Below, one piece after another: positions 1 through 57,221 of a stretch of 64,000 nt of DNA (position 1 is its first letter; each line of letters starts with the position of its first letter). The notes below the pieces were generated by a model. It saw only the letters and a program-made list of their open reading frames with translations, made no database searches and was not told the origin of the DNA. This DNA is from Endomicrobiales bacterium. Its GTDB lineage: Bacteria; Elusimicrobiota; Endomicrobiia; Endomicrobiales; JAFGGC01. The stretch spans positions 1 to 64,000 of the forward strand of contig JAFGGC010000001.1 in the NCBI GenBank assembly GCA_016930715.1. The letters are read 5' to 3'. A program made the position numbers and the translations under genes.

Positions 1-3000
1 GTGAATACAAGATCGCTGGCGATGAAAGTTTGGTTCGCTGTTTCCGCTGCTTTACCGGAATCTTTCGGGAACTCGATCTCCACCACGAAACGGTCCCCTT
101 CCCTCATGACCGGCTTGCCGTACTTGTAGACCCAGTGCGGCATCGCCCTGAACTGCGAAGCCTCATCCCTCATTCCGAGATACTTATTGAAATTCGCCTT
201 GTCATACACGCAGAGCTCAAAAGGAAGGTGCCCTTTTTCATCCGCGACATTGAAGTTATACTTGATGCGGTCAAAGCCTTTTTCAAGTTCGCCGTACTGC
301 GATTCTTTTACTATCTCGGTGAACGCTTTCCCGCCCTTTGAAAAGAGCCAGTTGTCGACCACATCGCGGGCTTTTGACAACTGCTGTTCGGAAACGACAA
401 CGCTCATGCCGAAAATGTCCTTCAATGACACGACCTCAAAATAGAGAGCCTCCCTGCTGGAGGTTATCTTTTCCCAGATGCTGCAGATTCCTTTCAATCT
501 TGCCGTAACGTCGCCACTTACCCCTTCATTGGCCAGCTGGGAAAGAAGCCTTTTTCTCATCGTTTCAAGCGCGTTCTTGGCTTCTCCGTATTTCATGCCG
601 ATGAGGCGTTCGACGGCCGATTTCACCCTCTGATACTCATAAGGGTCAAAAAGCCTGAGAGACTCGTCCCTTAAGACTTCCGATATCCCGTACTGCGCCA
701 TACTCATGCAGAAAGGCACGTATATGTGCTGAATCTCAAGAAACCTCGCGCGCCTTTCGCGTTCGTCCTTAATCCGGATCAGGGAACGCAGTTTACCGGC
801 CATAAGAAGGAGCATGGCGTCCGGGTTGCCACGCGTCATCTTGACGACCATGCCTATGTAATTCTGTATGGTGCGGTCCCCTTTTATCTTCGGGATGGTC
901 TTGCCGTCAACGTACGGGACCTCAAGGTCTATTTTCTCATATGCCGCTATCGCGCTCTTGACTTTGTCAAGGCGCTTGTTCAACAGTGAAGTCTCCCTCA
1001 ATACGTTCCGCGCGGGAGCGGCCCCGAGGTTGACACCGCTCAGCAGCGCCGCCGCAACGGCCAGGTCGCTTCCTTTCCAGGAAGCCACGTCTTTTGCCAT
1101 TTGGAGCCTTATCTCGAAGTCCGCCTTGTCGCGCCCGTTGAGCTTTGCCGCGACCGAAAAAGCTTCCCTTATCATCTGGCCGCTTTCGCCGGGATGGTTG
1201 TCTTTATAGGCGGACACTATGTCTTCAAGGATTTTTCTTTCTTCGGGGAAATCAACGGTTTCATAGTAGCCCGTTTTGAGCGCAGGTTCTTTTGCTTTTG
1301 CGCTTGCGAGTATTTCAGGAAGAAGCCTTAGAAGCTTTTCCTGTTTAGCTATAGATCTGAGCCTGCCTATGTCGACTTCATGATCTTGCGCGTAATCCTC
1401 AAGTTTTCCCGACGCCTCACTGCCCGAAACCAGCTCTATATAATGATGAAATGCTTCCGCGGATACCGAAAAGTTGTCTCTTTTGGCCGTGAACCTGAAA
1501 TCCGCGAATTCAGGCCCTTCCGCCCCGTTCAGGGCGAGATATTCGTCCAATTCGTGTTCCACAAGAGTTTGAATGAATTCATCCACGCTCCCGAACCCTC
1601 CGGGAACCGTGCCCGTGTCTATCAGTCTTTCGATATACCGCAGCAAGGCGCCGTGAGCGATAAACATGAACTTCTGCTCGTTCCCGGTGAACATTTTGTT
1701 AGTCTCGACGCCGAGAGAAGCGAGCATGCATGATTTTGGATCTTTAATAAGCGCCGGATCTTCCATCTCGACAACCTGAAGAATCGTTCTCGGACTTCCC
1801 TCGACACCGCTGAACAGCCCTTTTTCCCTGTTTTCAATCGCGAGCGCCATGGCAATGCGTATCCTCTCTGCAGCTCCTCCCTCCGATACGCCAAGCATAC
1901 CTGACTTAACAAGCTTCCTGGCAAGAGAAACAGATGGTCTTAAAAGAAAACGCCCCAGCAGCGCGTTCATGGGTGCGGAATCGTTTATAAGACCGTTTAT
2001 AAGCTTTTCAATACCCTCTCCATATGCTGTCACATGAACAACCGGCTCCAGGCCCCCAGCGGCTTCTTGAAGTATCTTTTTTATCGAAAACTGCTCGCTA
2101 ATTTTGAAAATGTGCGCGTCTTCGGGGTCCAGTTCAATATAAATCCCGTTCCGGGCGATTTCGCTTCCCGGATACACGTATTCCGGTTCGACGCCCGAAC
2201 GTCCTTTTGTCTCAGGGCGTTTCAATTCATAAAAAACATCCGCGAAAACATAATTCCGGGGCAGTTGTGTTTTCCAGTCGGGAGGAAGGAAAACGTGGCC
2301 TTTCTGCGGCGCATTCGTGATATTTATTACGACAAGAGTTCTCCTGTGGCCCAATTTTCTCGCATAGGCAAGCAAATTCGGATTAGAAGTGTCGCATACA
2401 TACAGGTCGCCCCTTTTAATTTCCGCAAGGGCTGTTTTTGCCACGAGCGATCCGCACCATTTCTGCATCTCCTCGTCCGCACTCACGCCGGTCTTGTCCA
2501 CCAGCTGCTGAATGGGCATTTGGTCAAGCCCCTGCGCGGTCCTGTAATGGAGATAGAATACTCCGGGTATAGTCGCGTAAAGAGCCAAAGCCGCCTTGAT
2601 GAAGTCCTTCCCTCTTGACCAAGCATTCGGTTCGTTAATGTCGTGGGTAGCCAGGAAATGCACGTCCCGTTCCATTTGACTTGTCGGAGACATAAGATAA
2701 CGCCTGACCGCCTGAACGTCGCCCTGAACTATACTGTCGCGTATTCCCTTGTTGAAAACAACGAACCTGGGATGAAGTTCTCTAAGATACTCGACTATAT
2801 CCCCGTAAGCTTCGGCAATTATGACAAGACGGGGATATTCGTCCAGTATTTCAGAAACCTCTTCATAAATATCTCTCGGCCAGTGTTCATAGAAAGCAGT
2901 GCTCTCGGGATGCCAAAGCTTCCTGAACGCTTCTCTGTCAAGAAGGTTCAGCATGTCAAGGCGGACGTTTATGCCCATCTTCGCCCAGAACCTTATCGTG

Positions 3001-6000
3001 TCAAGGATGTATCTCCTGACTGTTTCCTTGCTGTAATCAAGCTGCGCAGTATCCACCCAGCCTTCAAAATTCGGGTCCCTGCCGTGGGCTATCAAAATCC
3101 TGCTTGACCTGTCTCCGGGAACGGTGTAATAGACAAAGAAGTGATGATTGTCGGGGTTAAGGTCCATCCCGTGCCGTTTGAGGGCACGATGAAGCCTGTC
3201 ATAGACGCCCAGTTCCCGAAGCCTTTGCTCGTTAAAAAAGTCTTCGTCATCTATCTGCTCAAGTTCTTCTCCCAACGTCCGCGAGAGTTTGATGTGTATC
3301 GTATCTCCCCAGTTTTCCTTTAGCCATAAATTATCAATCCCGATATGATTGGGAACAACGTCAACATAAACCCTTGAACCTTTGCGCGCCAGCCTGTCGC
3401 GTATCCTGAAAAGATCGGTGAATTTCCCCCACTGCGGATTTATCCCCCGATCGTTAAAAACAGCGAAAGGTGAACCGTTGAATTCGATGTTTCCCTGCCA
3501 AGGCTGGTAGATTACAAGGCGTTTTTTGGCCGGCCCTTCCCTGCTTTTTCCCGTACCGACGTCTTCCTTCAATACTTTGTTATATTCATCTTCGTAAAGG
3601 GTATAAAAGGGAGTTTCTGCGTCGTTACCGATCCTCTCGCCGCGCGACATCCGCGTCACAAGGTCCCCGACAGGGAGGAGCCCGACAAGATAAACATCCT
3701 TGTATTTCCCGCCAATGCCGTCTATCTCCTCAAGCAGAAGTTCAGCGGTGCCGGGGATTATGCTGCCGTCTTCGCCGCGTTTCGCTCCGTAGGCAAGCGC
3801 GTTTATCTGGTACACCGGGCCGACCTGAGCTCTTTCGTGCCTTGATTCAACCCTTTCGCGTTTTATCGTCCCGGTCAAAGCCCTGTCTTCATCGGTGAAA
3901 TACAGCCGCTGAAAAGCTCTCAGGATATAATGGAACTTGACGGATTCCGGGCTGCCGGGACCTATTTTGTCAAGATACAGCTTTTGATAAATATCCTCGT
4001 CCACGCCCGTAACAAATGATTGTATGTCCGGAACGGATATCTTCCACAAAGCGTTCATAATATGGGCAAGCTCGTGGAATCTCGCGACAGGGTCGTTGGC
4101 TATGCTCTCGTGCAGGACACGCATTGGCCTGGCGTTATGCGGCCCTGGTCCGAGCCCGAGTCCAAGCAGGTCTTCGGGCACAAGCCTGCTGCCTGTTACA
4201 AATTCGGCTCTGTCGAATATGATGTCGTCCAACTGGGGATCTTCTGAAAGGAATTTTTGAAGGCGGGCGAACGCTACTCTGACTACGGGCTTCTGTGAAT
4301 CGAGAAATTCAAGGTCCTCTTTCAGGAAACTCGGCGGGGCGCGCCTGCCGTATATCACGATGTCTTCTTCGTGCGCAGCCCCTATCGGAAGGACCGTCAC
4401 GACCATCGCGACCCTGCCTTCGGGATATTCCCTGAACTCGCTGACGCTCACTCTTTCGAACTTGCCTATGCATCCGTCGGCGGTTTCTTCAGGCCTGGTC
4501 AGGTCCCTTAATCTGGCTATCTGCTCATCGGTAAAATTAAACCTGTGGTTCTTGCTGCTTTCACCGGTCAGCATATCTTCCACGACTTCCCCGATTTTTA
4601 CTACTTCTGCCTCATCGTTTTCCTCACGGCTTGATGAAACCGCGTCAGCAACCTGCTTTATTGCCAATTCTTCTATTGTTTTTGGTGCACTTAATTTTTT
4701 ATCCTTTGTCGGGAAATATGACGTGTACCTGCCCGCAACAACGCTAATGAGAGCGTAAAATACTTCGACTGACGCTATCCACAACCACGATTCATACGAA
4801 AGGTTCTTCAAGACTACCTTTAGTTTTTCCGAATATGTCGGGTCCGATGGTCTTGTTCCGTTTCTCAGGAAATTCTCGATCCTTGGTATTACCAGCGGAT
4901 CCGTAAGCATTTTAGACGCGACCATCACTCCGTCTATCGCAACGCCCCCTCCTTCAGCACCGCTTTCCGACGCCTTGATCATCCCGGCAGCGTCGTCAAT
5001 CGTACTTACCTGGCCGTTGCCGAATATATATGTCCTCTCCGGCGCCTCTCTTTTTATGTATGCGAGCAAGGGCCATTTGGTTCTCGCGTCCCTTGGTTTT
5101 ACCGTATCGAACTGCTCGTTTTTCGTGCGCGTGTGAATAACAACCCAGCTTGCCCCCGCGTCTACGACCCTGTTGACGAATTCCGACGTTTTCTTGTCGC
5201 TCGGGACAAGAACCTTGTTTTCATCTTCTTCCTGCAGCAGTCTCATCTTGACGGACACCGGCACGTCTTCGCCAACGGCCTTTTTAATCTCTCTTATTAT
5301 CTTTTCAAGAAGTGCCTGTCTGTTGTATAAGGCCGGCCCGCCGCCGAACTGTTCCAGCGAAGGGCACCCGGTATTGATGTCTATCGAAGTTGCACCGTTT
5401 AACACCGCGAGTTTTGCCGCGATGACGTACGCGTCCACGATCTTTTGGTCGCCGCTGTCAAACAATCCCAGGACGTTCAGGTGCTCTGGGATTGAGTGAG
5501 GGCCAGAAAGCTGTATCGCCGTGTGAGACTCGTTCGAGGAAATATCAAGCCTCGGCAGGCCGCTTCTGAACATAACATCACTCCAGTAATACCGCTTGTT
5601 ATACACGTGCACCTGCGTGTATATGTTCCCGACTTTCATCAGGTCGGAATACGCTATCTGGACCCCGCAATCCTGGGCAAGTAGGACGCGTTTGGGATAC
5701 ATCGTCTCGTTGTCGACCGGACCGGGCAGGACTTTCGGCAGCATTGAAGGATCGAACTTCTTTCGTTCGAACGTGATCTTTCCCGATCTTTCGCGCGCGA
5801 GATGCTCTTCATCCCTCAAATCGACGTACCAGTCCGGCGTCGTCAACGTCACGACCTCCGCGCCCGCGTCCTTGTGCCAGGCCAGCACGCCCGCTATCTG
5901 AAGGGCTCCGGGCGGGTTCGTCACGAGAAAATCTATCGTACCTTTTTCCCTGTCGTATCTCGCGGGCACGATGCTCCTCACATCACCCAGCCCACCGTCG

Positions 6001-9000
6001 TGCCTTTTGACTATCTGAACCCAGAGTATCCCTTTGATACTGCCTGGCTCGCCTACCATTTCAGGATTGACGTAATACTCATCCAGTTTAAAACCCTCGT
6101 TCAGCTTCCCGCCTATCGAACCCACCGGTAACGATACGTCCAGCACCATGGATCTCGGCTTGAACGCGGTTATGCCTTCCGTGTCCAATATTTCGACATC
6201 TTCGATCACTATTTTTTCTTCGGCGTCGGTCAGGATGCTCCCCGTGCCGTGCTTGTTAAGGAACTTATTTTCCATCAACACGTCTCTGGCGGAACACGGT
6301 ATTTTCGTGGCCACCGTATCCCATATACCCTGATGAACCCTCATTTTTTCCGGGCCGTAGTCGACCTTTATCGTGACTATGAGCCTGTCCGGCTTGATGT
6401 GTATCTTCACGTATTTTACCGGCGAGGAATACGTGTATTCAACTTCGTCTTCGCTTATCCAGTTCTCTTTAAAATCATACTGGTCGGCGTTTCTTTCATC
6501 CTCCTTGTTGGCGGCCCTTGTTCTGCATACGGTAACGAGTTTCTTTTTCAACTCACCCTTCGCGGTATCGCTCAATTCGGACAATCTCGCGCAGCCCTTT
6601 ATCTTGTATTCAGTGTAAGCCTTCTGCCACGTCTGGGGTTTGAAGATCTGATACACCTGCCAACCGATAGTCCTTGCGGAAGGCGCCTGCCACGAATCGC
6701 TTCCCTCAAACGTATCCACCAGAACCGCAAGCTTCTGCCTGTGGTTTTTATGGGTATGTACGCTGAACACTACCGTTTTATCGTATACATCCGACTGCCC
6801 CTTCTTTTCCTGCACGACGTAGGTATCCTTGATATTCACGTCAGCCGTGAACGGAGGTTCTCTCAACTCGTTTATGCCTACAAGGTGCCCGTACCACATT
6901 TCGCCGATCAGCATCACGTATTCCGGCTTCTGCTTTTTTACCGCTTTCTTCAGATCAGCGCGGTTATCGGCAGCATCAATCGCCAGACCCTTATTAAGAT
7001 AATCGCTTAAGAGCGGGGCATCTGCTCCGAATTTCTCCCTTATGAAACCGTTAAAATACGGTATCATCAATTGAATATCAAGATACGTCGCGTCACTTTG
7101 AAGCATCGGCTGGCTCTTGCCGAGCAGGGTCACCTTGAAACCAAGGTTCAAAAGAAGATATACCTGCCATAGGACATAAAACGCTTCCGCGCCGGCATTA
7201 TCCATTGCTACTATTACTTCGGGTGTCTTGCTTCCGCCTTCTTTCATTTTTGCTTTCATCAAATCGATCAGTTCTTTTCTATCATCAACCACGACAGTGT
7301 CCTTTGGCTGCACACCGGCACCCCTGCTCAGATCGCTTTCTATATTGCCTCTGGCGATCCTGTTCATAGTATGCGCGATGTTTCCCCAGAGGTCTGCTGA
7401 TTCCATCAGTCGCGGGTCAATTCCACCCATAAATTCGCCGAATTCATTGAGCCCATTTTTCAGAAGCTCGTACTTCCTTCTCCTGTCCTGGTCATAGTGA
7501 TAGAACCTTCCGTCAGAATCAGATTCATATATGCTATACCTCTTGGACGGCTTTGATGGATCAACTACAGGGCTGCGCGCGTGTCTCCTCTGGGAACCAT
7601 AAATGAACGTTAAATAATCCTCTTCAATATCGCCCGCCTTCTTTATCCTGCTCATGTCTATTTGAGTTTCCTTTACGGCCCTATCCCAGTCAAAGAAAAT
7701 ATTTCCAAGCCTGTCTAATGCGATATGGAGGGCCGTTTGTTCTTCAAGGGGAGGCCCCGTACTGCTGTTCCATGTCCGCCTGTCAAATCCATTTTCGTTC
7801 AGCTTGTACTTCTCGGTAATAATCTTCAATTGTTCCATTATTCTTATTGTTTCGGCAGTTAATCCCCCTGCTTTTTGTACTCTTTCCAGCCTTCTAATCA
7901 TAATATTCGCGAACCGCACCGCATCATAGAAATGATACATCGTCTTGCTCATTTCAATCAGCTTAAGATAGTAAACCATAAATGCGTTCAAATCGCTCTC
8001 CACTTCCGGCTGCAGGTCCAATGACCTCCTGACTAAACGCAATCTATCGATGGTCTGTCCAAGAACTCGCTTTGTATCGCGTTCCGATATCTTCCTGGCT
8101 TCAAGCTGCTTCGCGTTTTCGTGATGAATTTTATCCCTTTCATACTGCTCGGGCCAATACCTTCTTTCCATGTCCTGTATTTTGCGTTTTCTTTTCACGC
8201 CATAATCCTGGACCATGTTAAGCACCAGGTCATCCGGAAGGCCCACAACCGTCAGCGGGAATCCTTCAACATGGTCAATCACGAGGAATATATCCCTGTC
8301 CTGGATCGCAAAAGCGCCTCCCTGGCGCAGGGGTTTTCCTTCCGCGGCGTACGCAGAAATAATATCGCTTGTTGTAACCCTGTCTTTTTCAAGAAGAGGG
8401 GACAGATATCCATATTTTTCAGGTTCAGATTCGACTATTGTCCTTATTTTTGTTTTATTGACTCTTTCGTTCAACTTCTTGAAATGCACGTATGTTTTTC
8501 CATAATCAAGCGTGACCTTGCCTGATTCCGAATCAATAATGCAAATCCCGGTAACGACGCTGACTCTGTTCCCTGCATAGCTCCTGAGCTTCTCAACGGC
8601 TTCCTGTTCTGTTTCTATTCTTGGAACGGGCCCGTGGCTGTCGCTTATTATCGTGTCCATTCCAACAACCACTCCAGCTCCCCCTTGTTCTAAAACATAC
8701 AGCGCTTTCGCCAATGCCGATACCATCGCGCTGTTCTCATATGATAAACCTTTGCGACCCAATTCTTCAACCTGAGGAGTTACCCTTGTAACATTTTCAA
8801 ATATTTCCCTCATTATGTAATTCCTTGGCGACGGAGGTGACGCAAGTATTACTTCCCCCTTATTGGGCCTGGCTTCCCATTGGCCTCCTATTACTTCAGC
8901 CAACAGCATCTCTTTAACAGGTATGCCTCTATCTAGCATCCAACTAATTCTATCAACCACATATTCAACCATCCCCACGTATTGAATAATCTCTCTGGAA

Positions 9001-12000
9001 TTCCCTATCTCTCCATATTTATCCCAAAATTCTTTTAACTTATTTGCGTCAACAACCTCTCCGAACAAGATTATATATTTTCTAATTGTTTTTGTAAGAG
9101 CTTCGTCTTCAGCCTGTAAATGTTCACTCTGAAATGCCCTTATGGCATAATGAAATTTAATAGGTTCCGAATCATTATCGTCTATTTTTTGATCGTACAT
9201 TCTTCGGCATATATCTTTATTAGTTACTTCAGACAATACTCTGTGTGTCGGAAGCAAACCAAGACTATTGGCAATATGCGCGATTTCATGAAACCTTGCG
9301 ACAGGACTTTCGTACAGTTCTCTTCTGATTGCCCGTAGCGGTTTTCCATTGGGCCCATCAGCAATACCTATGCCTCCGAATTCAGAAGGCAATAGATCAA
9401 CACCTTCATAGCCCCTCCCACTTCTATAGCCCAAATCAACAGTCTTGGGACCTATCAATACAAAGCATTCATCTAATATAATGTCATCTATCTGAGGTTT
9501 TGATGCGAGATAGTCGCCGATTGCACGAAAAACATTCGAACCGGGTTCCCTGTCGACAAACAACATGTCCTGATTCAGATAATCAGCAGGAGCGCGATGT
9601 CCTGACAAGAATATCGTTTCTATCTTAGACGAATACCGTCTCTTGGCTATTAACGTAATATGGACCAGCCCGTCAGGATTCTCCTTAAATCTTTCGACTT
9701 TCACCGACTCATACTCACCTATAAATCCGTCGGCGGTTTCGGCATCGCGTGCATCGGCAAATGACGACCTTTCAGCATCAGTACCCGGCAACTCTTCCGC
9801 GGTCCATTGGCCCGCGGTCTCTTTCACCAGAAGACCGCCTCCTGCTTCAGCAAGCCTGTCTATGCGGCCAATAAAGTCCAAATCCGAAAGTTTCTGCTTA
9901 AGCTCATCGGGCCTCATGAATTTCGCGCTTTTTGGAAGCTCAAGCATTACAAAACCTGGTATCTTCAGTCCCGGGAAAACCTGTTCAACAAGCCTCTTCC
10001 AGTAATTTGACTGTTTTTCCTTGGCTATCGGGATGTCTTCAGCTTTTTTCACCGGGGCGAACACATCGTCGGCGTCATACCCTATTTCTACTCCGTAACG
10101 TTTTTTGTTGCCGCTTGAGCGCTCGAACTTATCCACCCCTATCAGCTGTTTGTTGGCGCATAAATCCAGAGGCGCGTGCCTCATCAGGAATCCCGCGGCT
10201 GGACGGGTCCTTCCGCCTTCAAGCAGGCCAACGAACCATTTGTGGTACACGAACGCCGCATCCCCTTTATTCTTCACGAGCGTCCAGGGTGTTTCCTTCG
10301 AACCTTTAAGGCTGTCCAGCGTGACCACCCTGATGCTCGGGTCGCCGTACGGCGATGCGTTGACGGCGTCCGAAGCGTCGCCGTAATCTATGGATTCCTT
10401 GCCGCCGTTGACTACGACGACGTTGCCCAGCCGGTCGGTGAAGGTTCTTCTTTCTTCATCCCATTGAGTCTTTTTGACAAGGGCAAGCGTTATATGGGCG
10501 CGGCCGCTTCTTTCGGACGCAGGGTCCCTGGTTGTCGCGTGATATCCAAGTATGACTTCGTCGGCCACGGGTTTAAGCGGATTGTCTACGTCCATGTACT
10601 GGACGTTCTCGACGCCAAAACCCTTGTACCATCTGACGACATCTGTTTCGATGAACCTGCCTTCGTCTTCAGACCAGGTGATTCCTCTGACCCCGGCTTC
10701 CGGGTTAAGCGCGTAATCGAAGGCGTCCCCGTGGCCGGCTCCGGAAAGCGCCAATTCGTACGGCGAGGCCATCACGACTTCCCTGGTCTTGGAACCAATA
10801 ACAGGAAGGTGCATCTGCTCTACAAAAATCACCCTGTCTTTTATCTCGTCCCATTCTTCCAGAGCCTGCAGGTACCGTATCGTCTTTTCCTTCGTCCTTC
10901 TGCTGACCATGAACCCGATGGGATACGTTTTTGAATGCCCGTACGCCTTTGCCGCGGCGGCTACCTCTTTTACTATGCTTTGATACATTGTTTCGCCGCT
11001 TAAAGGCGCTATTTTCATGAAACCTTTAGGGTCGTCGTCAGAAAGGCCTTCCGCCCCTCTTACTCCCGAGCCTGTCCCTCCGCAAACGACAAGACAGCCG
11101 TATTTGGCGGTGTCCAGGCCGGGGTCTTCGTTCGCGCCGGCCGTCAAGACATCCCTGCCGGCTTTTATTACGTCCTGTCCGGCAATGTCAGGGTTCTTCG
11201 GTTCGATGAACCTGAAATTTTTTGGGCGTTGCTTTCCGGCGGAACTATGCGCCGAACTCATAAGCTCATCAAAAAGCCTCCAATCGACCTGTTCTATGTC
11301 GGAAAGAAGCCTGTCCCTCTGCCTGTTCGAAAGTACGTCCCAGTCTTCAAGAAGGCCCTCCTGGCCTATCGAGCTTAAAACCTCTTGCGCGGCGATGTAG
11401 CGTTCTTCAAGCGTTCCGCCGGCCGGCAATCTTGTCCGGTAAGGCGTTTCGATTTCAGCCGGCTCTATGGCGAAATCCTTCGTTCCCAGAATGGATTTGA
11501 CTATGTTTTCGGACTCTATGTAGGCCGCTACCGCCTCCTCGGCGAAACGGAATATGTTGGGGTACTTTCCTTCGGTCAGTTCGTGGTAGTCAAAGTATTT
11601 TTCCTGCAGTCTGTCTTTCAAGTACAGGTATTCGTCCATCTCGTGAGCGACAAGTTCCTCGACCAGCGCGTCCTGCTCCGGAGGGGCGCGTTCCAGAAGC
11701 TTTTTTAAGAACCCTTCGGTGACGTAGAACACGTTCCTGCCGTTTTCTATGGACACGCTCGCGTAGCCGAGCCCTCCCCTGTCTTCGCCCACGATAAAGA
11801 ACTCCCCCTTTACCACCTTTACCTCCAGCTTGTCGGGCCTGGGAAGAGTCAGCTTGCCGCCGCTCTGGCCGGCGTATTCGAGCACCGCCATCCTTATCTT
11901 GCTTGCCAGCGGGATGAACGGCACGACATCCGCGTTAGGAAGGTAGTGCGGGGCCTCTTCGTGAATGGTAACGGTGTCGATGAACATCCTTGCCGCTATC

Positions 12001-15000
12001 CTTTTTGCCATGTCCTGAAGCCTGTCAACAGACGCGGGCCCCGAAACCGTTGACAACAGGTATTTAAAGACCATTTTTATGAGCTGTTCGTACCTGAAAC
12101 CGAGCGCCTGGCGGTGGTAATCGGCAAAAGTCATTTTATATGGAAAGAGCTCAAGCTGGACAGGCGGAGCGGGCTTGGGGGATTTAAGCTCGGGAAGGCG
12201 GGAAAGCGGTACTTTTTTCGCCGAATAGTACTCTTCCGGAGGTATTCCGTCCTTGCCGGTCTTGGTAAGCCATAGCAGGAGGTCCATCCTGACGTCGCCC
12301 TTGTCGTCAACCGGTATGAAAGGCAAATCTTTTAGCGCCATTCCCGATATATCCACGGAACCGAACAGCCTGCCGGCACGGGCGACCTGTTCCGCTCTGA
12401 AAATATTTCCTTCGCCGGCCCAGGCGAGCGGCCCGGTTCTCGTTATTAGGGATTTTACCTGCGGAGCCCCCTGTTTCCTGGCGGCCCTTTTCAAGTCCTG
12501 AACCCATTTTTCAAGCTGCGCCCTGTCTTTTTCATTCGTCATTCGCGCGGCGTACGCGTTAATGTAATCCTCCACCGCCTTCAAAGTCCACGATCTCGCG
12601 CCAGACATCAGACTGTCAAATTCACGCTGTTCGAAAGTCTCCCTGCGCATCGGATACGGCAAGAAAAGCCCGTGTTGTTTGCAGAAAACATCGATGGCTC
12701 TGCCGTATATCGTCTGCCCCTCAAGCGGGTCTTTGATTTCCAGTATGTCAAGAAGCTCCTGCGGATCGGTTATTGCGAAAGTTTTCATTCCCTTATACCT
12801 TACTTCATAGACTGTTCCGCCGATCTCCGTATCCTCAACCGCGGCAAGCTCCACGCCGCGGTCGGCGGCGAAGCGTACGAACTTTTCTTTAAATCCTTTA
12901 GCCAGGGCGGGAATATCGTGCTTTATATGCATAAGTCCGCCGGCCCTGGTGACCCTGAGTATTTCTTCAAGGCATTTATTCACGCCGTCGGCGTCGAGCC
13001 ACACGAACGTGTTTATCAGGCTTACTTTCGTGACGCTGTCGCTATCCATCGGCAGGCTTCGTATGTCACCCTGAATTATCCTAAGGTTTTGGGCGGGATG
13101 TTTCCTTCTGTCCCTGATTGTTTCAAGATATTGCTGGATGTTTTTCCCTCCGGATCCAAAAAGGAGGTAATCAAGTACGAAAGGGTCGTTGGCGTGTTCG
13201 GCAAGTTTCGTTACGATCGGTATGTTTTGCCCGGCGATATCCACGTACACCGAATCCTTAACCTTGCACGAAGCGGCCACCGCGGCGGTCCCCGGGCCTC
13301 CGGCAAGCTCCGCGTAAACGTCGTCTTCGTTGAGCTTGAGGGGCCCTATGACCTGGTTCGCGCTGTGTGCAGCGAAAGGCCTGACTTGCGAGTCGGATAC
13401 CGAAGCGGTTCTTATTTCCTCTTTAGGCACCGTTAAAACCGTCGTTTCACCCTGTCCAAGAAAAAGGCGTAACTGCTCCTGTGTGGACTTGGCTATCTGC
13501 CCGCCGACTCTTTTTGCCGTTTCCGGGAGGTTTCTAGCGGCAATAGCGGTGATCCTCATTATGTCCGGTTTTTCGATGTATACGAGCGAATTTCTCCCGC
13601 CCAAACCGTCATCTTCGGACGCATAAACGCTTTTATCGTCCACCCATTCGCCGTCGACAATAAACTTGTACTTGTTCTGGCCCTCGGGCAGCTTCACTGT
13701 AAGTCTATATACCCCCTCATCGGCCGCCCATTTCATCCGCAGCGTCCCCGGCTGCCACGCGTTGAAGCTCCCCGCCACGAATACCTGCGTTTCGGTCTTT
13801 ACCGGCTTGTACGTGAAAGTGTGTTCTACAAGAGGAACGGGGCTGTGGACGATCAGGCCCGTCCTGCCGTCGTACATCGGAAGGTCGAACACGAAACCTT
13901 CTTTTACGAGCCATTTCCACTCTTCGAGGAACCTGCCCCTTTCATCCTCATTCATATTCAGGACGATACATCTGAATCGTGACGGGTCTACAATATCCCC
14001 CTGTATCTCGCCTTTCCAGGCTCTTGTCAATTTAAGATATTCCTCTTTGGGTAAAAATTTCGTTCTTATGCCGTGAAGGTCCTTACCAGCAAAGGAACTT
14101 TCAAGATATCCTGCCTGGAACGTGTCAGAATATCCTTTTTCGGGATCTATCACTATCTGAAAGGATTTGTTTGTTCGCGGCATTGAGTTTTCGTGATGCA
14201 GTTCAAAAGAAGTATAAATCGGATGCAGGTCGTCGCCGGTGCCGAGTTCAGATATGTCTGAAGGCACTATGCCGTACCTGAAGATAGAGGCGAGAGTTTC
14301 GGCCTCAGGTTTCACGTAATGAGTCAAATAGGGGGTATCGAACACAAAATACGACAAGTGCGGTGCGCTGTCTTCGTGCGCCGGTTTTGCAAGGAAAATA
14401 CTCCCGTAAACAAGCATTGTCCTGCCGTCATAAATGAAAGACCCGATATTTGGATACGAAGAATACCTTGGAACCGTTTCTAAATCGATGTTCGTCCTCA
14501 TTCCTTCGAACATCCTGAAAAACATGTCGTATTTATTGCCTTTCGACGGTTTAATAAAAAGTCTTTCTTTTCCGGAATCGTCCACGAAAACATGGCCGCT
14601 GTCCCCGTAACCGTATTTACTGGGCTCAAAATACTTTTCGTGCCTGTAACTTTTCCCGCCGGCCATTAGAACGCAATCCTGTATCGACTCGCCGCCAAAC
14701 ACTACCTTAACACCCGTGCCCGTCGCCCCGCCCGTTTCCTTTGCCGGCTCTTCCTCCGCGGGAATATCAACAAGGAACAGCATCGAGGCGAATATTTCCC
14801 GCTTGGCCAGCGAATCTATATTCGTGCCTTCGGCCGTCCACACGAGAACGTCGCCGCCGTTGTCAAGGAGTATCGAGTCGGAAAGCCCCGCGTCGGCGCT
14901 CCGCTCGCAGAGTTCATCGAAGGTGATGCCCGCCTGCCTGTCGTCGCTTGACACCGCGAACACCTTAACGCTTCCGGTTCTCGTGGTCCCCACTGTCTTG

Positions 15001-17823: not shown

Positions 17824-17937
17824 AAGTAGGGACAGCGCCTACTTATTTTTAATTTCTATTGATGCATTATGCACAGATACAGAATGCACAAGATGCAATA
17901 TTAAGCCTCAATCAATAAGTAGGCGCTGTCCCTACTT
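17824..17937. mobile_element. MITE/REP-like element with perfect 24-bp terminal inverted repeats
   Basis: Positions 17824-17847 and 17914-17937 are exact reverse complements (AAGTAGGGACAGCGCCTACT plus TATT). Each arm is itself a small hairpin (AAGTAGG/CCTACTT around GACAGCG). The 66-bp centre is AT-rich and holds no ORF. This resembles REP/MITE sequences moved in trans by TnpA-REP-type transposases; no transposase is present here. The right arm supplies the last codons of the lipoprotein gene and the left arm ends 10 bp before the GP1 start codon, so it occupies nearly the whole gap. Confidence 0.8.
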
Positions 17938-18694
17938 TTATCGTGAAATCGGCTCCCTTGCCGGAGACCTTCACCTTTCTGGTTTCATATCCGAGGTATT
18001 TCTTGTTTATTTTCTCGGCCTGTTTTATGAGTGTATCCTCGAAAAACGAGAAAAGTTCCGGGGTCAGCTTGTTGGTCAGTTCCACGTCGAGCTCGCCGTC
18101 CCTGAAATCCTTGTATCTCAGCTGGATACTGCCGAGGATTATCCCCAGAAAAGGGTTGTTCCGGGAAAGCATGTTCATCTGCGACACGACGAGCCTGCCG
18201 ACGAATTCCGGCATGGTAAGCTCCCTGTCCATCCTGTCCATATCACCGTAGCGGGCGTCTTCGGACGTGTCTATCTCAAGCACCAGCCTGTCCTCGTAGT
18301 CGGAACGCGAAATCTTCTGATAAAGATAGTATTTTATGTCGTCCAGACGCTGTATTATCCTCAAGTGCAGCTTGTAGGTGGGGTGGCTGGCGACAAGGAC
18401 CAGGAACCTTATTTTCGCGTCGCTCGAGAGCGAGACCCTCGTTATCGTGAGAGACGCCCCCTGCACCTTCTTGAGTATGTCCGTCAGGGCTTTCTGTTCC
18501 GTGGTGATAAGGTTCGCCAGCTGTATCTTCAAATATAGCGTTTCGCCAACGAGTTTCGCCTCGCCGTCGAGACCGTATTCCTTCTTGACGAGTTTTTTCA
18601 CTGCGTCGGGAACCATCGCCCTGGGGTACGAAGGCTTGCATCCGGATAAGCCGGCAAGGACGAATACCGCGCACAGGAACAGGCATTTCCTCAT
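17912..18694 (-). CDS. Lipoprotein of unknown function (260 aa)
   Basis: The N-terminus [19 protein letters not shown] is a lipoprotein signal peptide with lipobox LSGC at residues 16-19, so the mature protein should start at Cys19 and be lipid-anchored. The rest (about 240 residues) is mixed alpha/beta with conserved-looking charged segments but no motif I recognise. The start ATG (18692-18694) overlaps the FtsH-like stop by 4 nt (ATGA), which implies translational coupling and a shared transcript. The last eight codons (VGTAPTY and stop) are encoded by the right inverted repeat of the MITE-like element, so the original C-terminus was probably replaced when the element landed. Confidence 0.9.
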   Translation of the reverse strand: MRKCLFLCAVFVLAGLSGCKPSYPRAMVPDAVKKLVKKEYGLDGEAKLVGETLYLKIQLANLITTEQKALTDILKKVQGASLTITRVSLSSDAKIRFLVLVASHPTYKLHLRIIQRLDDIKYYLYQKISRSDYEDRLVLEIDTSEDARYGDMDRMDRELTMPEFVGRLVVSQMNMLSRNNPFLGIILGSIQLRYKDFRDGELDVELTNKLTPELFSFFEDTLIKQAEKINKKYLGYETRKVKVSGKGADFTIKVGTAPTY

Positions 18695-20352
18695 ATGTTC
18701 TGACCCTGGGAATCGGCCGAGTTCTGGTCCGGTTCGATGAATTTTTTAGCCGCCTCGTCCAACGGTTTCCCTTCCCTCTTGAATATCGCGTCTATCGTGT
18801 CGAAATCAAGCTCGTTCTTGTCGATGAGCTCCCTGGCGAGGTCGTCCACGAGGTTCCATTTGGCCTTTAGGAACTCCGTAACCTTGGCGTGGCAGTCGTT
18901 CATTATGGCAATCGTCTCGTTATTGAGTTTTTCCTTGAGACTGTTCGATATCTCGTTGTCTGGAACCGCCGAAAAATCTCCTATGAGTTCCTGTCCCATC
19001 CCCAGCTCCCAGACCATAACGTGGGCTATCTTCGTCGCCTTCTGGAAATCCGACGAAACGCCGGTGGACGTAGTTCCGTACTTTATTTTTTCAGCGACAT
19101 ATCCCGCCAGCGAAACCTTTATGTCGGCAAGCAGTTTTTCCCTGGAATGTGTATGCAGTTCTTCCCTCGGGTGATGGCTCACCATTCCGAGTGCCGGGCC
19201 CCTTGACTTGATCGTCGCCTTGAACACGTCGTCGGTCGGATGAAGAAAGTAGAGCGCCACCGCGTGCCCGGCCTCGTGGTATGCCGTCTGTTCCTTTTCC
19301 TGCGGGGTCATCAGTATGTGCGTCTCAAGGCCCAGGTCAATCCTATCCATAGCCTCCGAGAGGTCTTCCATCTCTATGTGTTCCCGTTTTTTCCTGGTAG
19401 CTATCAGCGCGGCTTCTTTGATTATGTTCTGTATGTCGGCAGGCGATTTATACACTGTTTTCTTTGCCAGCCGCGATACGTCCATGCTCGGGTTGTATTT
19501 CACTTTTTTGAGGTAGTACTTGAAAAGGTCTTCCCTCTCGCCGAGGTTCGGGTGGCTGATGTATATCTTTCTGTCGAACCTGCCCGGCCTAAGGAGTGCC
19601 TTGTCTATTATCCCTTCGGCGGCATTGGTGGCGCCCACCACTATTATGTTGTGTTTTCCGCTCTCAAGACCGTCCATCTCGACAAGAAGCTGGTTCTGGG
19701 TCGAATTTGTTTCCTCGCCCCCGCCCATGAAGGAGAAGGTCCTTCCCCTTCCTATCACTTCAAGTTCGTCTATGAACAATATGCAGGCGCCCTCGGCGTA
19801 GGCGTACTGGCGCGCCTTCTTGAAGAGCTTCCTCACCCTCGATGCCCCCACGCCGACGAATATCTCGACGAACTCGCTGCCGGATATGGAAATGAAGGGG
19901 ATGTTCGATTCGGTGGCTATCGCGCGGGCAAGAAGCGTCTTTCCGCAGCCCGGAGGGCCGACCAGAAGCAGCCCTTTTATCACCTTGCCGCCTATCTTCT
20001 TGACGTAGGCGCGGTCCTTAAGGAGCTGTACTATCTCCATCGCCTCTTTTTTGGCGCCTTCAAGCCCTATGACGTCCCTGAAACGCACTTTCACGTCGTC
20101 GGTCTTGATTTTTGATTTTTTCAGCCCGCCCAGGCCGCCCCTGAATATCGCCATGTAAAAATAGACGAAAACCATCGCGTTGATGCCCGTCAGGAGCAGC
20201 TGGAGAGGTATGGTGGCAAGCGTAAGGTTCCTGTAGAAGGATTCCAGCATTCCCAGGCCGACGACCGTCAGGATTATCAGGGAAACGCAGACTACAACAA
20301 TGGTCAACTTCAACCAGTGGTTGATCCAAAATACCTTGAGTTTTCTGTACAT
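18691..20352 (-). CDS. ftsH: FtsH-like membrane AAA+ zinc protease, short form (553 aa)
   Basis: Two membrane helices (residues about 14-36 and 46-68) are separated by only about 10-15 residues, so the usual periplasmic domain of FtsH (roughly 70 residues) is missing. The AAA+ module has Walker A GPPGCGKT (19936-19959, residues 132-139), Walker [10 protein letters not shown] and the second region of homology RPGRFDRKI. The protease has HEAGH (19264-19278, residues 359-363) and the third-ligand Asp in [10 protein letters not shown]. At 553 residues it is shorter than the typical 610-650. The SD GAGGAAAA precedes the ATG. FtsH extracts and degrades membrane and some cytosolic proteins. As the partner of a lipoprotein next to three giant membrane proteins, it may handle their turnover; this is inference. 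It could be an accessory paralogue rather than the housekeeping FtsH. Confidence 0.93.
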
Positions 20353-21216: not shown

Positions 21217-24200
21217 TTATCCGGCGCCCAGCATTGCCGCGAAGCCCTTGAGCGCGTTGCCGGCCGCGTCCTTCACTATAGGCGCTATGACTATGCGCCT
21301 TTCCTGAAGTATATCGAATATCCTCATTAACTCGCCTATAGCCCATACCTCTTCCGGCTTGCCGACGTATTTTTCATCAAGGACTCCCGTCCTGAGCATC
21401 GCGTCGAACAGGGGGTTGAGCGTTTCCCTGATCTCCGAAACCGGCCTGTCCTGTTTCGTCATCTCGCTCGCTTTTGCGACAAGCGCGATGAAGCCCAAAG
21501 CTTTATCAGGGCGCATACTGCCGAGGTTGCCGCGGGCGCCGTTAAGGCCTATGATGGTCCTGAATATTCTCCTGTCTACCGATCTGGCGTCCGGAAGCGA
21601 CGCTTCGCCGTTCCGCGCTATGTATTCCCTCTCGGCAAGCTGTTCAACTACGCCGCGCAGGAAACCCGCCAGCTGCCCGCTGTAGGCGGCTACGTCTCCC
21701 GGCCTCGCGGCCGCGTTTTTATCTATGTTCTTGATATATGACCATCCGGCCGGCCACTGATTGGGTTTCAATCCCTCTATATCCACGAGCACGCTGCTGA
21801 TTGCCTCAAAATTCAGGCGTGTTTCCCGGCGTTCATCGGCCTGAAGCTTCGTGAGCGCGTAGAACAGCTCGTGTATCCCTGTTTGAACCGAAGGAATCTC
21901 GATATTGAGCCCCGTCTCATAGCCGAACCTCGCCATCTCCGCCGGGTTTTGCGGCCTGTTGAGGCGCTTGGCAATGTCGGATAGTACGTCCGCTATCCTG
22001 ACAAGGTTCGTATCCACCCTGCCTTCAAGCGGCAGGCGGTAGACCGGCGTAAGGCCTCTCGCGTCACCGACCTGCGCTCCCACGGACATCGTTATTATCG
22101 AGGCCCCGGAACGTATGGCTCCGCGAAGTTCGGAAACAGCCTCCACGCTCGTTTCAGGTTTAATAGCGTCAACTACCAAGTAATTGCCAAGGTCGATAGC
22201 GGAACCGCTCAGGCCGTATGCGCCTTTTAATTCAGCCATGCTCGCAACTTTCAGGTTGAGTATGAAACCTTCTCCTTTAGCTTTAACTCTGTCTTCCGTT
22301 ATCGTAGGAAGCTCGGCTATGGCGATTGCTTCAGGGTTCTGGGAAATTACGGCTTCTTTCAATTTTTTGTACTCGCCGCGCTCCAGCCCGTCCCTTTCAA
22401 CAACAAATCTCCAACCGTCGTTCAAGCCCAACCGGCCCCAGTATTTCACGGCGTCCACCGCCTTGTCTATCGTGCCGGCCGAAATCCTCATTGTCAATAT
22501 GATTTTTCCGCCCCTGGCGTGGACGTCTTTCGCCATCTGGCCCGCCTGTTTGGCGAACAGCCACTGGAGGAAGGTGGCGGTATTGCGCTCGCGCACGCTA
22601 TTGCCGTATTCGCCGTCAAGGCCGCCCTGAAGGGCGTTAAAGAACTTACCGGCAAGTTTCTGCGTGCGTTTTTCTATCTCATCCCTGTCGATTTTTTCAT
22701 CGCCTTCCGTCCTTATGAGGTCCAGTATCTCCTCTTCGCCTTCCTTGCCGAATTTGATGCCGGCATCCTTGAACATCCCAAGGACCGCCAGCCAGTCAAT
22801 AAGGTGCGGATCGCCCGTAAGCAGGTCTTCCGATGAGAATGACTTGAAATCCGAGAGCTTCGTGACAGGCATGAGCTCGACAGTCCTGTCACCCACGAAA
22901 TCGGCAACCTGCGTCAGTTTCCCTATGCCCTGGTCGTCTTTGGCCGAAGGAATGGCCGATACCGCGGCTATGGTATGAATGCTCGTCGCCGCGGCGACCT
23001 TCGATTCGGCTTCCTTGGTTATGACTCCGGGGAGGTACTCGTTTATAGCATATCTTTTCGCGTCCGTTTCCTCGTCCGAAAGCCATGTATTGAACCTTTC
23101 TGCGTCATCGTCATATACCGTATGAACGCCGGCGAATTCGGCGTAATGCTCATCGTCGAGCGCGTTCGGCGCCGCAAGCTCCGAGCTTTGGTCTATCTCG
23201 ATTATCGAAGGTTCTAATGTATCTCCCATATTGAAACCGTATTTTTTGAGCTGTGATTTCAGATTATCGCTCGCTAGGTTTCTGTTCTTATGTGTTATGG
23301 TCTCTCTCATCTGCAGAAGCACGGCAAGCGCGCCACTTCCCAGCAGAATGTCTTCCTCGTCGTCCGGTATTACGCTGTCTACCGAACGAAGGATAAGGAC
23401 CGGCGCGCCAGTTCTCTTATCCGTGAATATCTTCGCTTCAACCGTAACCGGCCTGCCCTTTATGTAGATGGTTGCGCTGCTGACAGGTTCGCCGGGCATC
23501 GTTATGTAAGAAAGCCCTGGCGTGGGAAGAGTTATGCCAATCGCGGGTATGCCCAGTGAATTCAGTTCCGCGATCTTCTCCAGATCCAGGCTTCCCGAAA
23601 CCTGGACGAACATCTTGCCGAGAAGCTGCGGCGCCTTTTCCCTGGTCCACTTGTACGGGTCGCTGGCCTCTTCGGTCTGCCTGAGCGCTCCAGCGCCTGC
23701 CACGAGCGAAACCGCGCCGGGCAACGCTCGCGCCGCGACGGGAACGACCCCGGCCGGCTCGGCGGCCCCTGGCCCGACGGAAGGACGAACACCTGCTACG
23801 GGCTCCGCGGGCACCGGCGGAACTACCACGACGGGCTTCTTCCTTTCATCGATCATGCTCATGAAAGCGATAAGCTCCTTTGCCGCTTCTTTTTCCCTCA
23901 TTTTCGATATTATCACGGCAGTCCTGTACAAAGCGTCCATGTTTTCAGCCCTGAACATGTGCAGTTTGTTAGCGCCGGGCAGTACGTTATCCGCTATCTC
24001 CGGGACGACATCTTCAGCCATACCCCTTGATACGCACTCGGCTGATTCGCCGAGACGCTCAAAAAGATGCCTCGACCTGAACAGCTCGTCTTCAAGGTTG
24101 AAGCTCTTTTTCGCCTCCCTGCTCGTCACCATTACCGTGTCAAAATTAACCTTGAACTTCGCGACCTTCTCCACTTCCGTCTTTACGGCCGCAAGCAGCT

Positions 24201-27200
24201 TCTTTATTTGGACCCCGACTTGCTCTTGTCCGAGATCCCCCTTGAAGCATATGACGAACCTGTCCGGTCTCCTGCGCCCAAGCATATAATCGCCGCCGCC
24301 CAGGTTCAGGTTCGGCAGTATGCCGGCAAGAATGGAATCCATCTGGCCGTAAATCACCTGGATCGCCCTGTCTCCGCCCACCGGCCCGAAATTGTCGTTT
24401 ATACCTTTTAACCCCATAGACACACCGTCCTTGAAATATGACGGCATTATTTCGAAGAGAGTGACTTCCTGGCCTTCTCCAAGCCATACGTCAATCGTAT
24501 TTCTGACGCTGCTTTCTTCTCCCATTTCATCGCTTAAAAGAGGAATAGCGCCTATCGGCCGGAGGTCCGTATGCGATACGCTTCCCTTGAGTATTTCAGC
24601 CGGCTGATCCGCGGAACCGTTGTACGTTACAATCCTGTCCCTGCCCATCGTGCCGCCTTTTGCGGCAATCTCCGCCTCGCCGGCGTGTTCTCTTACCTTA
24701 GTGAAGAACGCCCGAGGCGAAAATTCCTTTCTTTCTTCTTCGGGAAGAGCGGACAGGTCCACCGCTCCCATCGAAAGGGTCGGAGCCCAGAGTATCCCTC
24801 CGTTCAAACTGTCAAGCTTGGCGTTGCCCGGTTCCCTTAAAATATTCCCCATCCTCATCCTGTTAAAGGTTTGCTGGACAGTTGAATCCTCGTCGATTCT
24901 GAAAAGAACCTTATAGACCGAACCAACCATGTTTACCGCTATAACGCCCTTGCGGTCCCTTATCTGTTTAAGAACGTGTCCGGTGGCCTCGCTGGCGGGT
25001 ATTGTGGCCACGCCGTACTTGCCCTCTATGGCGGTCCTCGCTTTTATCCTTATCTCATCGAGAACCTGAACGGCATTCTTTACTTTCGCGGGAAGATAGG
25101 TTATCCATTCGTCCCCGCCCCAGCGTATTTCAAGGCCATCGTATTTCTTTGCTTCCCTGCCTATCAGCGTCAGGTATTCCTGAATTATGAAATTGACTAC
25201 TTCCTTGCCGTAGTAGTTGTTCATCTTGCCCAGCTTATCAAGGTCCGAGAGAGCCACGAAACCGGTCCTGTTGATTACTTCGCGCAGTTTCTTGAGCATT
25301 ACGTTCTTTCCCACGTTCCTGTCAAGGACCCAGTTCGAGTATTCATAGAAATTGTCGATCAGCAGGCGGCTGGCCAGTTCCTTGGCATACTCGAATATCT
25401 CCTTGTCCCTTTCTCCGCAGAATTCGTGATAATCCGCGAACCCTTTTCCTGTTTCCTCGGCATACATCAACTCATCAAGGTCGTGCAGAAGGATCGAGAC
25501 AAAAGGCGGAGCCCTGGCGCCCCTGTTCCTGAGGAAGCCTTCCGCTATCCTGATTATTATTTCGTCCCCTCTTTGCACGCTTTCCACGAAACCGAGGTCG
25601 CAGGAATCCTTGCCCACCGCTATCATGTCGCCTTTTACTATCTCGATCTTGATATTGTCTTTTCGTATCGGGTCCCTGCCCGTCAAACGCCCCGCGAGGT
25701 ACGGATACGATTTACCCAGAATCGTCTTGTTGCTTTTGAAAATGATGGTAAGCGCGTCATCCAGTTGTGCGCGTTCCTGCTCATAGGCATCCTCCGGGAG
25801 TATCTGCCGGCCTCTCGCCTTGTTCATCACGTTGGTCACGATATCAGTGGCTTTTCTCTGGATACCCAGCGGGGTTACCACCGGGCTCATTATCTCGCCC
25901 ATGCTTTCGACCGCGATATCCATCAGTTCCTTCATCGTGAAACCGACCGCGGTGAACCGCCTCGCGCGTATCCATTCTTCGGTTAGGTCGAGCACCGAGT
26001 TCTGGCCGCCGATGCCGTTCGGCTCGGTTTCCGCGCCGGCCGGGTCAAGTATCCACTGTCCGTTAACTATTAACTTGTAAGGGTGCCTGCCAAGAGGAAG
26101 CTTGAGCGTTATTGCGTATTCTCCGCCGCCCACATCCTCCATCTCGACCGGTTTCCACGAGCTGAAAACCCCCGCTATCTGGACCTTCTGGCCCTGAATG
26201 CCGTTGTAGGTGAAGCGGACGCTCTCCCAGTTTGCCGGCACGTGAATGAGCTCGCCGCTGGCGCCGTCATATATCGGAAGATCCGGCATGTATCCTTTTT
26301 CTACCAGCCGGCCTATCTGGCTGAGCAGTTCTTTTCTTTCGGAAGTATCAGCGATGTTGATAACTATGCCTTTTATTTTTTCTGGGCCGATGCGCCCTTC
26401 CTTGGCTACGACTTCGCCCCGCGTGGCAGTGTACACTGCGCCGGAAGGCGCCGGGACAAAAGAGTCGTCAAGGTCAAATAGAAGATGGAACCTGGACAGA
26501 ACGGGCATAGTGTTTGGCCCGTGAGTCATGAAACGCGCCTGGCCGGCGTCTTCAGGCGCCTCGCCCATCTCTATACCGGTGAATCTTCCCGCCATCACGC
26601 CGTGAAGGAATATTTCAGCCAGCTTTTCGGCCGTCAGCCCGCTTACATAATGGGAAGCGTATTTCCTTGAAAAATCGAACGTGCCGGTTGCTTGTTCCTT
26701 GCCTGCATACGCGGGTTTGGCAAGCATAACGTTACCGTATATGAAGTGGCTGAAATTCTCATTGACACTTTCCCCGGTTTCGTGCAACAGCGAGCTTGAG
26801 CTCATTATCCTGCCTACAAGCGGAAGCGAAACACCGCCGGGAAGTTCTATCCCGCCGGGCTCATGCCTCAGATACCTTATAAAAAGATTATCGGCTCTGG
26901 GGCCGTAGACCGGACCTTCCGTGACAATTATCTGTTCACCGGTTTCGGATTCAAACAAGGCCATTTTCTTTCCGATGTACCTTGAGAAAGCGAACGTTTT
27001 GCCTCCGAACACGGGCCTTAAGAACTCGGTTTCGTTCGAATACGCGTACATCGTTTTTCCGCCGACATTAACCGCGCCGATATTCTGGTAATACTGGAAA
27101 CTGGACGCGTTATACTCGTGATCATAACTACCAGACATGTCGACCATAACCTGAGGATAATTTTTCGAACCTAAAAAGACCTGGTACTTGCCGTTTTCAG

Positions 27201-57191: not shown

Positions 57192-57221
57192 TTTTCCCCG
57201 TCTCTCAAAATGCTTCATTAA

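Follow-up and report, generated by a model that had tools for sequence, protein, structure and literature searches.

Very large proteins are already known from Elusimicrobiota, one of the bacterial phyla enriched in proteins longer than 5,000 amino acids (aa) (PMC11573180), and giant open reading frames (ORFs) with transmembrane and adhesion domains occur in Omnitrophota (PMC10066038). As far as the accessible portions of these two reports go, the giants carry few annotated domains, those of Elusimicrobiota are without COG assignment, and neither a shared N-terminal anchor nor a chain of housekeeping enzymes is described (PMC11573180, PMC10066038). We analysed GP1, a giant frame at the start of contig JAFGGC010000001.1 from an Endomicrobiales bacterium of the phylum Elusimicrobiota (assembly GCA_016930715.1), within a window that comprises the first 64 kb (64,000 nucleotides) of this 200,778-base contig. 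The genome measures 2.30 Mb, and giant frames (GP1, GP2 and GP3) occupy most of the minus strand of the window. GP1 and its relatives resemble the reported giants in being very long ORFs in related phyla and, unlike what those portions describe, combine a common N-terminal anchor domain with a string of folds from housekeeping enzymes. Our literature search found no description of an architecture of this type; most subscription papers and all of bioRxiv, where West-Roberts and colleagues reportedly presented work on giant genes, were beyond its reach.

MARTX and polymorphic toxins are long exported proteins that join a constant part to lineage-specific enzyme cargo. The GP1 family is like them in pairing a constant part with variable enzyme cargo, and differs in that its cargo resembles housekeeping enzymes and includes one widespread module without its hydrolase motif. 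No Pfam family for the delivery repeats, the autoprocessing protease or the immunity gene of such toxins appeared in general scans of GP1, none of which was a search aimed at them.

Enzyme folds in the GP1 frame

GP1 is a single uninterrupted frame, free of stops up to the contig start (17813..3). Its features, in the order in which they are encoded, are as follows.

3..17813, minus strand: GP1 giant frame, 5,937 aa; N-terminus at 17813, C-terminus past the contig end
17739..17813, minus strand: N-terminal hydrophobic, signal-like segment; 17-residue mean hydropathy 1.83, family threshold 1.5
16224..17696, minus strand: anchor domain (QDLH ... EGA ... GGFH), about 490 aa, GP1 residues 40-530; alignments, own-genome search, AlphaFold2
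13563..13790, minus strand: AMPK1_CBM / CBM48 glycogen-binding module; Pfam 1.2e-12
12936..13130, minus strand: class I methyltransferase fold; Pfam Methyltransf_25 2.3e-6, 28.6 bits, cut-off 27
10539..11096, minus strand: UDPGP (UDP-sugar pyrophosphorylase) fold; Pfam 2.7e-5, 23.5 bits, cut-off 22
9126..9779, minus strand: HExxH module copy 1 (HEIAH); 39% self-match, motif
8208..8852, minus strand: Maf fold, two stretches; Pfam PF02545 4.9e-24, 85.5 bits, cut-off 27
7065..7397, minus strand: putative DUF89 / ARMT1-like fold (MDNAG); Pfam 2.4e-7, 30.7 bits, cut-off 25
4797..5426, minus strand: Dus fold; Pfam 1.7e-27, 96.8 bits, cut-off 20.4
3906..4529, minus strand: HExxH module copy 2 (HELAH); self-match with copy 1, motif
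2253..3449, minus strand: GH13 alpha-amylase catalytic region and C-terminal domain; Pfam Alpha-amylase 2.6e-10, 40.6 bits, cut-off 22
90..1259, minus strand: RelA/SpoT-type (RSH-like) module that has lost its HD motif and has altered synthetase motifs

A sequence-only reading of the window had proposed that this frame is a chain of methyltransferase, UDPGP, Maf, DUF89, Dus, GH13 and RSH folds, and all seven are confirmed by significant matches in profile or sequence searches. No segment, let alone over half of them, went unmatched; six of the seven pass their Pfam curated cut-offs, and RSH is significant but under its own. The span given for the chain, 110-13340, does not reach the gene start at 17813, so that the hydrophobic segment and the anchor were left out, and the list of domains was incomplete, lacking also CBM48 and both HExxH modules.

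PDB sequences likewise matched the Maf and Dus regions, while the UDPGP fold matched UDP-GlcNAc pyrophosphorylase (UAP, 6.5e-4), GH13 matched 3dhu (2.1e-8) and the RSH-like module matched the RelA-type chain 7oiw (2.1e-6). The last of these also scored with NCBIfam model TIGR00691 (6.5e-11, 41.3 bits, cut-off 499.2) and, under cut-off, with Pfam RelA_SpoT (0.039 and 0.013). Dus falls below the DusB equivalog level (TIGR00737, 87.5 bits against a cut-off of 293.3), and GH13 is accompanied by Malt_amylase_C (1.1e-4, under its cut-off). A genome-wide UDPGP search at E 0.001 did not recover the domain of GP1. The DUF89 call is a putative one, drawn from just a Pfam match to profile positions 109-213 of 311, seen only with a 301-aa piece and absent when the region was scanned within a 1,600-aa piece, and from a weak PDB match (0.041) to YMR027W, which we take to be a DUF89 protein; hhalign against three free-standing copies and BLASTP returned nothing, and a single-sequence AlphaFold2 model (pLDDT 38) was unusable. 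As this case illustrates, long scan pieces can mask weak Pfam matches. The two HExxH motifs of GP1 compare with 0.15 expected from shuffles.

The signature motifs of Maf, Dus, DUF89 and RSH enzymes have catalytic or otherwise conserved roles, and in GP1 they are preserved to different degrees. GH13 has its four regions with the catalytic D, E and D (DVVPNH, VRLDML, IIAEA, LATHD), and its catalytic D, E and HD are common to a frame from a different family in genome G003, at 35-38% identity. Dus keeps the catalytic Cys (GCP), K-x-R (KMR), H-x-R (IHTR) and GNG, with the N-terminal LAPM replaced (LAQD, by eye), and the PKG and VDN motifs of UDPGP are both present. Maf keeps the D of GxDT, reads ASPPSPRN in place of ASxSPRR, has no GKP and contains two insertions; DUF89 keeps DNAG and the D of (N/S)D, and has lost the FD following DNAG. 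The HD..ED hydrolase motif of RSH is gone from all seven giants aligned (GP1 and six others) and kept in three free-standing RSH proteins. Both synthetase motifs are altered in GP1 (YQS(L/I)H to GFDRIKY, E(I/V)QIRT to FELCVY); the first Glu of E-x-QIRT is retained in GP1, L035 and L039, in a region that is unalignable in L036-L038. The motif R-x-KS-x-YSI/M-x-EK is kept in five of the seven and altered in GP1 (RLKGICSIWEK) and L043, and HW-YK is found in four of the seven. With RelA/SpoT proteins the module of the giants shares the linker region, and it differs from them in these losses and changes and in being embedded in a giant. The claim that each domain retains its signature holds only in part, Maf and RSH having lost canonical residues.

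The anchor domain and the family it defines

The anchor domain defines an Elusimicrobiota giant-protein family of which GP1 is a member. It is common to GP1, GP2, GP4 (a 9,162-aa frame further along the same contig) and four further giants of this genome, seven in total, and was also aligned between GP1, GP2, GP4 and relatives; H35, E63 and H437 are invariant across the 37 rows of the alignment, and the invariant motifs of the domain are Q-D-x-H, E and GGFH. The GP1 anchor scores 588 bits (6.2e-177) in a profile search of its own genome, a value that is not independent, as GP1 is one row of the model. The AlphaFold2 model of the domain is of fair confidence, with a pLDDT of 84.7 and a pTM of 0.79.

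Proteins of the EreA-like / TIKI superfamily have an invariant His, an invariant Glu and a terminal GGFH, and the anchor has a comparable invariant His and Glu and a final GGFH. The match to them is not significant: PDB 2rad and 3b55, which we take to be EreA-like, stand at Foldseek ranks 18 and 33, with E values of 1.2 and 1.8 and TM scores below 0.2. Searching PDB sequences with the anchor profile gave nothing credible (best 0.024). Pfam DUF1722 was matched by 11 of the 37 rows (best in GP1, 8e-5, 23.3 bits, cut-off 22.5); the match lies in the helical part and was not relied on.

Scanning of genome contigs confirmed 213 stretches of the family. The best 80 of these were taken forward, and they come from Endomicrobium, Endomicrobia, Endomicrobiales, Endomicrobiaceae, Elusimicrobia or candidate genera placed in Endomicrobiaceae. 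In a survey of the phylum (149 genomes drawn, at most ten candidates scored per genome), the anchor was found in 44 genomes, of which 37 belong to the same order (own genome included), two to the same class and five lie outside the class, where scores are much weaker (1e-46 to 1e-52). Among the genomes listed, a list incomplete for genomes without an anchor match, genus g6 has anchor giants in 10 of 26, with one to five each. For the remaining genera of the order the figure is 27 of 31, and 26 of these 27 genomes have at least five. Genus g6, we infer from genome size, holds the intracellular symbionts, and loss with genome reduction is a possible reason for the lower frequency there. Twenty of the 80 family frames stop inside the locus (two are cut at the 5' end), with a median of 2,531.5 aa and a shortest member of 594 aa (L089); because the other 60 extend beyond it, family lengths and cargo are lower bounds.

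HExxH occurs 53 times in 70 family members, whereas composition shuffles give an expectation of 2.1. It is present at least once in 40 of the 70, and 28 of the 53 occurrences sit 650-950 residues past the anchor start. This excess points to a second common part of the family, a candidate metallopeptidase-like (zincin-like) module.

Cargo was surveyed with Pfam at E <= 1e-4 in the 70 frames that reach 1,000 aa, ten shorter frames being left out; the frames were divided into four groups, families were counted per group, and the first members of the groups carried 0, 1, 0 and 0 families. The families found, most of them in just one or two members of a group, are GH94 (4e-55), AAA_5 (1.4e-55), PPDK_N (1.1e-45), ABC1 kinase (7.5e-30), PGM/PMM (3.7e-22), HD, HD_5, LMW phosphatase, calcineurin-type phosphatase, M48, UDPGP, starch synthase, GA modules, TPR repeats and SecA-DEAD, the last in 4 of the 17 members of one group. 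Across 83 genomes of the order, UDPGP is found in 13, and all 14 matches listed lie inside frames of 1,138-11,689 aa, at least four of which coincide with entries among the anchor matches listed; a BLASTP comparison of the UDPGP of GP1 with that of other giants gave a single match at E 0.71 and none credible. These other enzymes in the giants of relatives suggest capture of whole enzyme folds as the way in which this lineage enlarges its giant proteins.

Cytidylate kinase offers the closest view of such a capture. It is present at full length (6.5e-61) in a 5,103-aa frame of genome G006 (L227/L228, G006:C59:47031-62339) that opens with anchor motifs, and again in a giant of G003 (8.2e-18). Identity to three free-standing copies is 36-40% for the module in G006 and 25-26% for that in G003, and the former is the clearest capture and the youngest-looking one. 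Captures of differing age would be visible, from the cytidylate kinase of G006 and the older one of G003 to Maf, Dus and RSH in GP1. The free-standing cytidylate kinase frames of G000 (L231, G000:C6:48500-52500) and G006 (L229) extend into a conserved C-terminal part, presumably acyltransferase-like, which the frame of G002 is without.

A conserved locus and the origin of the captured folds

Next to GP1 lie two smaller genes and a second giant.

17912..18694, minus strand: small lipoprotein-like ORF (lipobox LSGC, recognised by eye and only in the copy of the window); 34-42% identity in five relatives
18691..20352, minus strand: FtsH-like membrane protease (AAA + M41); Pfam, 60-67% identity in five relatives
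21217..56553, minus strand: GP2, a giant of 11,778 aa that has the anchor in common with GP1 and carries CBM48 and a GGDEF match

Five relatives (G057, G018, G013, G010, G011) have a locus in which an anchor giant of 1,952-1,989 aa, which also matches GP2 residues ~1774-2054, is followed by an FtsH-like protease, a small ORF and an anchor giant with RSH of 2,906-3,328 aa. The window shows the same gene order, with GP2 at its full 11,778 aa and GP1 at more than 5,937 aa. These relatives also have a long frame upstream of the locus, positioned like GP3, a 7,229-aa frame when the next contig stretch is added. Because the 2,184 aa of GP3 in the window had no BLASTP match among the upstream frames, the conserved order is limited to GP2, FtsH, small ORF and GP1.

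From anchor to RSH module, the distance is 989-1,388 aa in nine relatives in which both ends were matched, versus 4,889-5,122 aa in GP1, an excess of 3,652-3,938 residues, and this extra part holds all six named enzymes other than RSH. Pfam scans at E <= 0.01 found none of the six in the giants L036 and L035 of relatives, in long pieces that may hide weak matches. Growth of GP1 by insertion, as a probable series of captures, is supported by these comparisons, and serial capture of whole genes, as the sequence-only reading had it, draws support from the shorter giants of relatives and from the other enzymes recurring in the order. The relatives may instead have lost the region, rather than GP1 having gained it.

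Recent copying from homologues in the same genome, the source for which the sequence-only reading proposed a check, is not supported for Maf and Dus. Free-standing Maf, Dus, DUF89 and RSH (RSH 582 bits) are present in the genome; with its own copies GP1 Maf shares 26.7% and GP1 Dus 21.9% identity, no more than with those of other genomes (best 29.7% and 24.8%). In Maf and Dus trees restricted to sequences of the order, the GP1 branches are very long, at 6.7 and 4.8 substitutions per site. So the two captures are old or come from elsewhere. G003, to which GP1 Maf is joined on the 6.7-substitution branch, was rejected as its origin, the grouping being taken as long-branch attraction.

The last 2,378 aa of GP2 carry the CBM48 (8.4e-11) and GGDEF (4.5e-7) matches, and its five preceding pieces of 1,900-2,000 aa gave CMD alone in Pfam at E <= 0.01, sub-threshold at E 0.0031; its cysteine content is 0.13%. 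A short ORF at 56553-57218, between GP3 and GP2, has two hydrophobic segments and zero Pfam matches at E <= 0.01.

Export, function and competing explanations

GP1 and its family are likely exported. A hydrophobic segment precedes the anchor in all 63 family members tested, and cysteine is low in the family, with a median of 0.32% in 70 members versus 0.95% in 27 other ORFs of the contig. The proposal that the whole chain stands in one frame behind a signal peptide is borne out in that a hydrophobic N-terminal segment is present, but the segment of GP1 did not pass a stricter setting (19-residue, 1.6).

We consider the chances evenly balanced that GP1 is a probably exported giant that serves as a scaffold at the surface or envelope, in which certain glycan enzymes are active and other folds have been repurposed. 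Each giant of the family starts with a hydrophobic segment and the ~490-aa anchor, often followed by an HExxH module, and continues with a string of folds that is specific to the lineage and includes several captures from cytoplasmic enzymes. GP1 would act beyond the cytoplasm, in the envelope or on the cell surface. GH13, CBM48 and perhaps the HExxH modules, which have substrates outside, would remain active on glucans and proteins, and RSH, Maf and perhaps UDPGP, DUF89, Dus and the methyltransferase, which depend on nucleotides or tRNA, would be retained as repurposed binding or structural units. The adjoining FtsH-like protease and lipoprotein-like protein probably aid insertion, folding or quality control. 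Somewhat short of even, in our judgement, is the chance of a broader process: a phylum-wide, dedicated growth of exported proteins, in which whole cytoplasmic enzyme genes are captured behind the anchor and catalysis is kept or stripped according to whether a substrate exists outside.

Several observations weigh against the scaffold reading. The same hydropathy measure is positive near the start in 16 of the 27 other contig ORFs, so that hydropathy alone is no proof of export, and this control brought our confidence in an envelope scaffold down from slightly better than even to even. Dus and UDPGP keep several catalytic residues, a poor fit with an inactive role, and we know of no substrate for either outside the cell. 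The anchor is without a significant fold match, Foldseek returning 182 matches at E <= 10 and zero at E <= 0.001. The G003 frame that shares GH13 residues with GP1 is a fragment of 1,422 aa, truncated on either side, and shows no anchor. Maf embedded in a giant is found only in G000 among the 83 genomes, and embedded Dus only in G000 among the matches listed from them, which leaves selection unmeasurable for both.

The giants might alternatively be products of a near-neutral ratchet, in which inserted coding DNA is tolerated in long proteins and the folds serve only length and solubility. The very long Maf and Dus branches and the variation of cargo among members would fit such a process, but GH13 signature residues are kept between two families, large frames with the RSH module occur in six genera of the order, and the 17.8-kb frame of GP1 remains open; we regard this explanation as unlikely. 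Quite unlikely, too, is an injected multi-effector, a giant whose delivery into the cell of a host or prey would give its nucleotide, tRNA, alarmone and sugar-nucleotide folds access to their substrates. It would account for the catalytic motifs retained by Dus and UDPGP, for HExxH modules that could cleave the protein into pieces, for cargo that varies among family members, and for the many named relatives that are from ruminants or Endomicrobium-named; against it stand the RSH hydrolase motif lost from every giant aligned, the lost GKP motif of Maf, the lower frequency of anchor giants in g6 than in the other genera among the genomes listed, and general Pfam scans that found no delivery or pore family, with no search aimed at those or at an immunity partner. 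Cleavage of the chain as a polyprotein into separate small enzymes, by the HExxH modules or the FtsH-like protease, is improbable, for while the HExxH enrichment, the row of whole domains and a protease gene within the conserved locus favour it, M41 proteases work on the cytoplasmic side, and a released RSH module would be inactive because its hydrolase motif is lost.

If the scaffold reading, with its captures of enzyme genes, is true, it would provide a testable origin for bacterial giant proteins of a poorly characterised class, in which captures have diverged to different extents, and it predicts that modules with extracellular substrates are catalytic and that others are not. The anchor domain, with its invariant His, Glu and His, and the locus pairing FtsH with a lipoprotein-like protein are handles for finding and studying the family.

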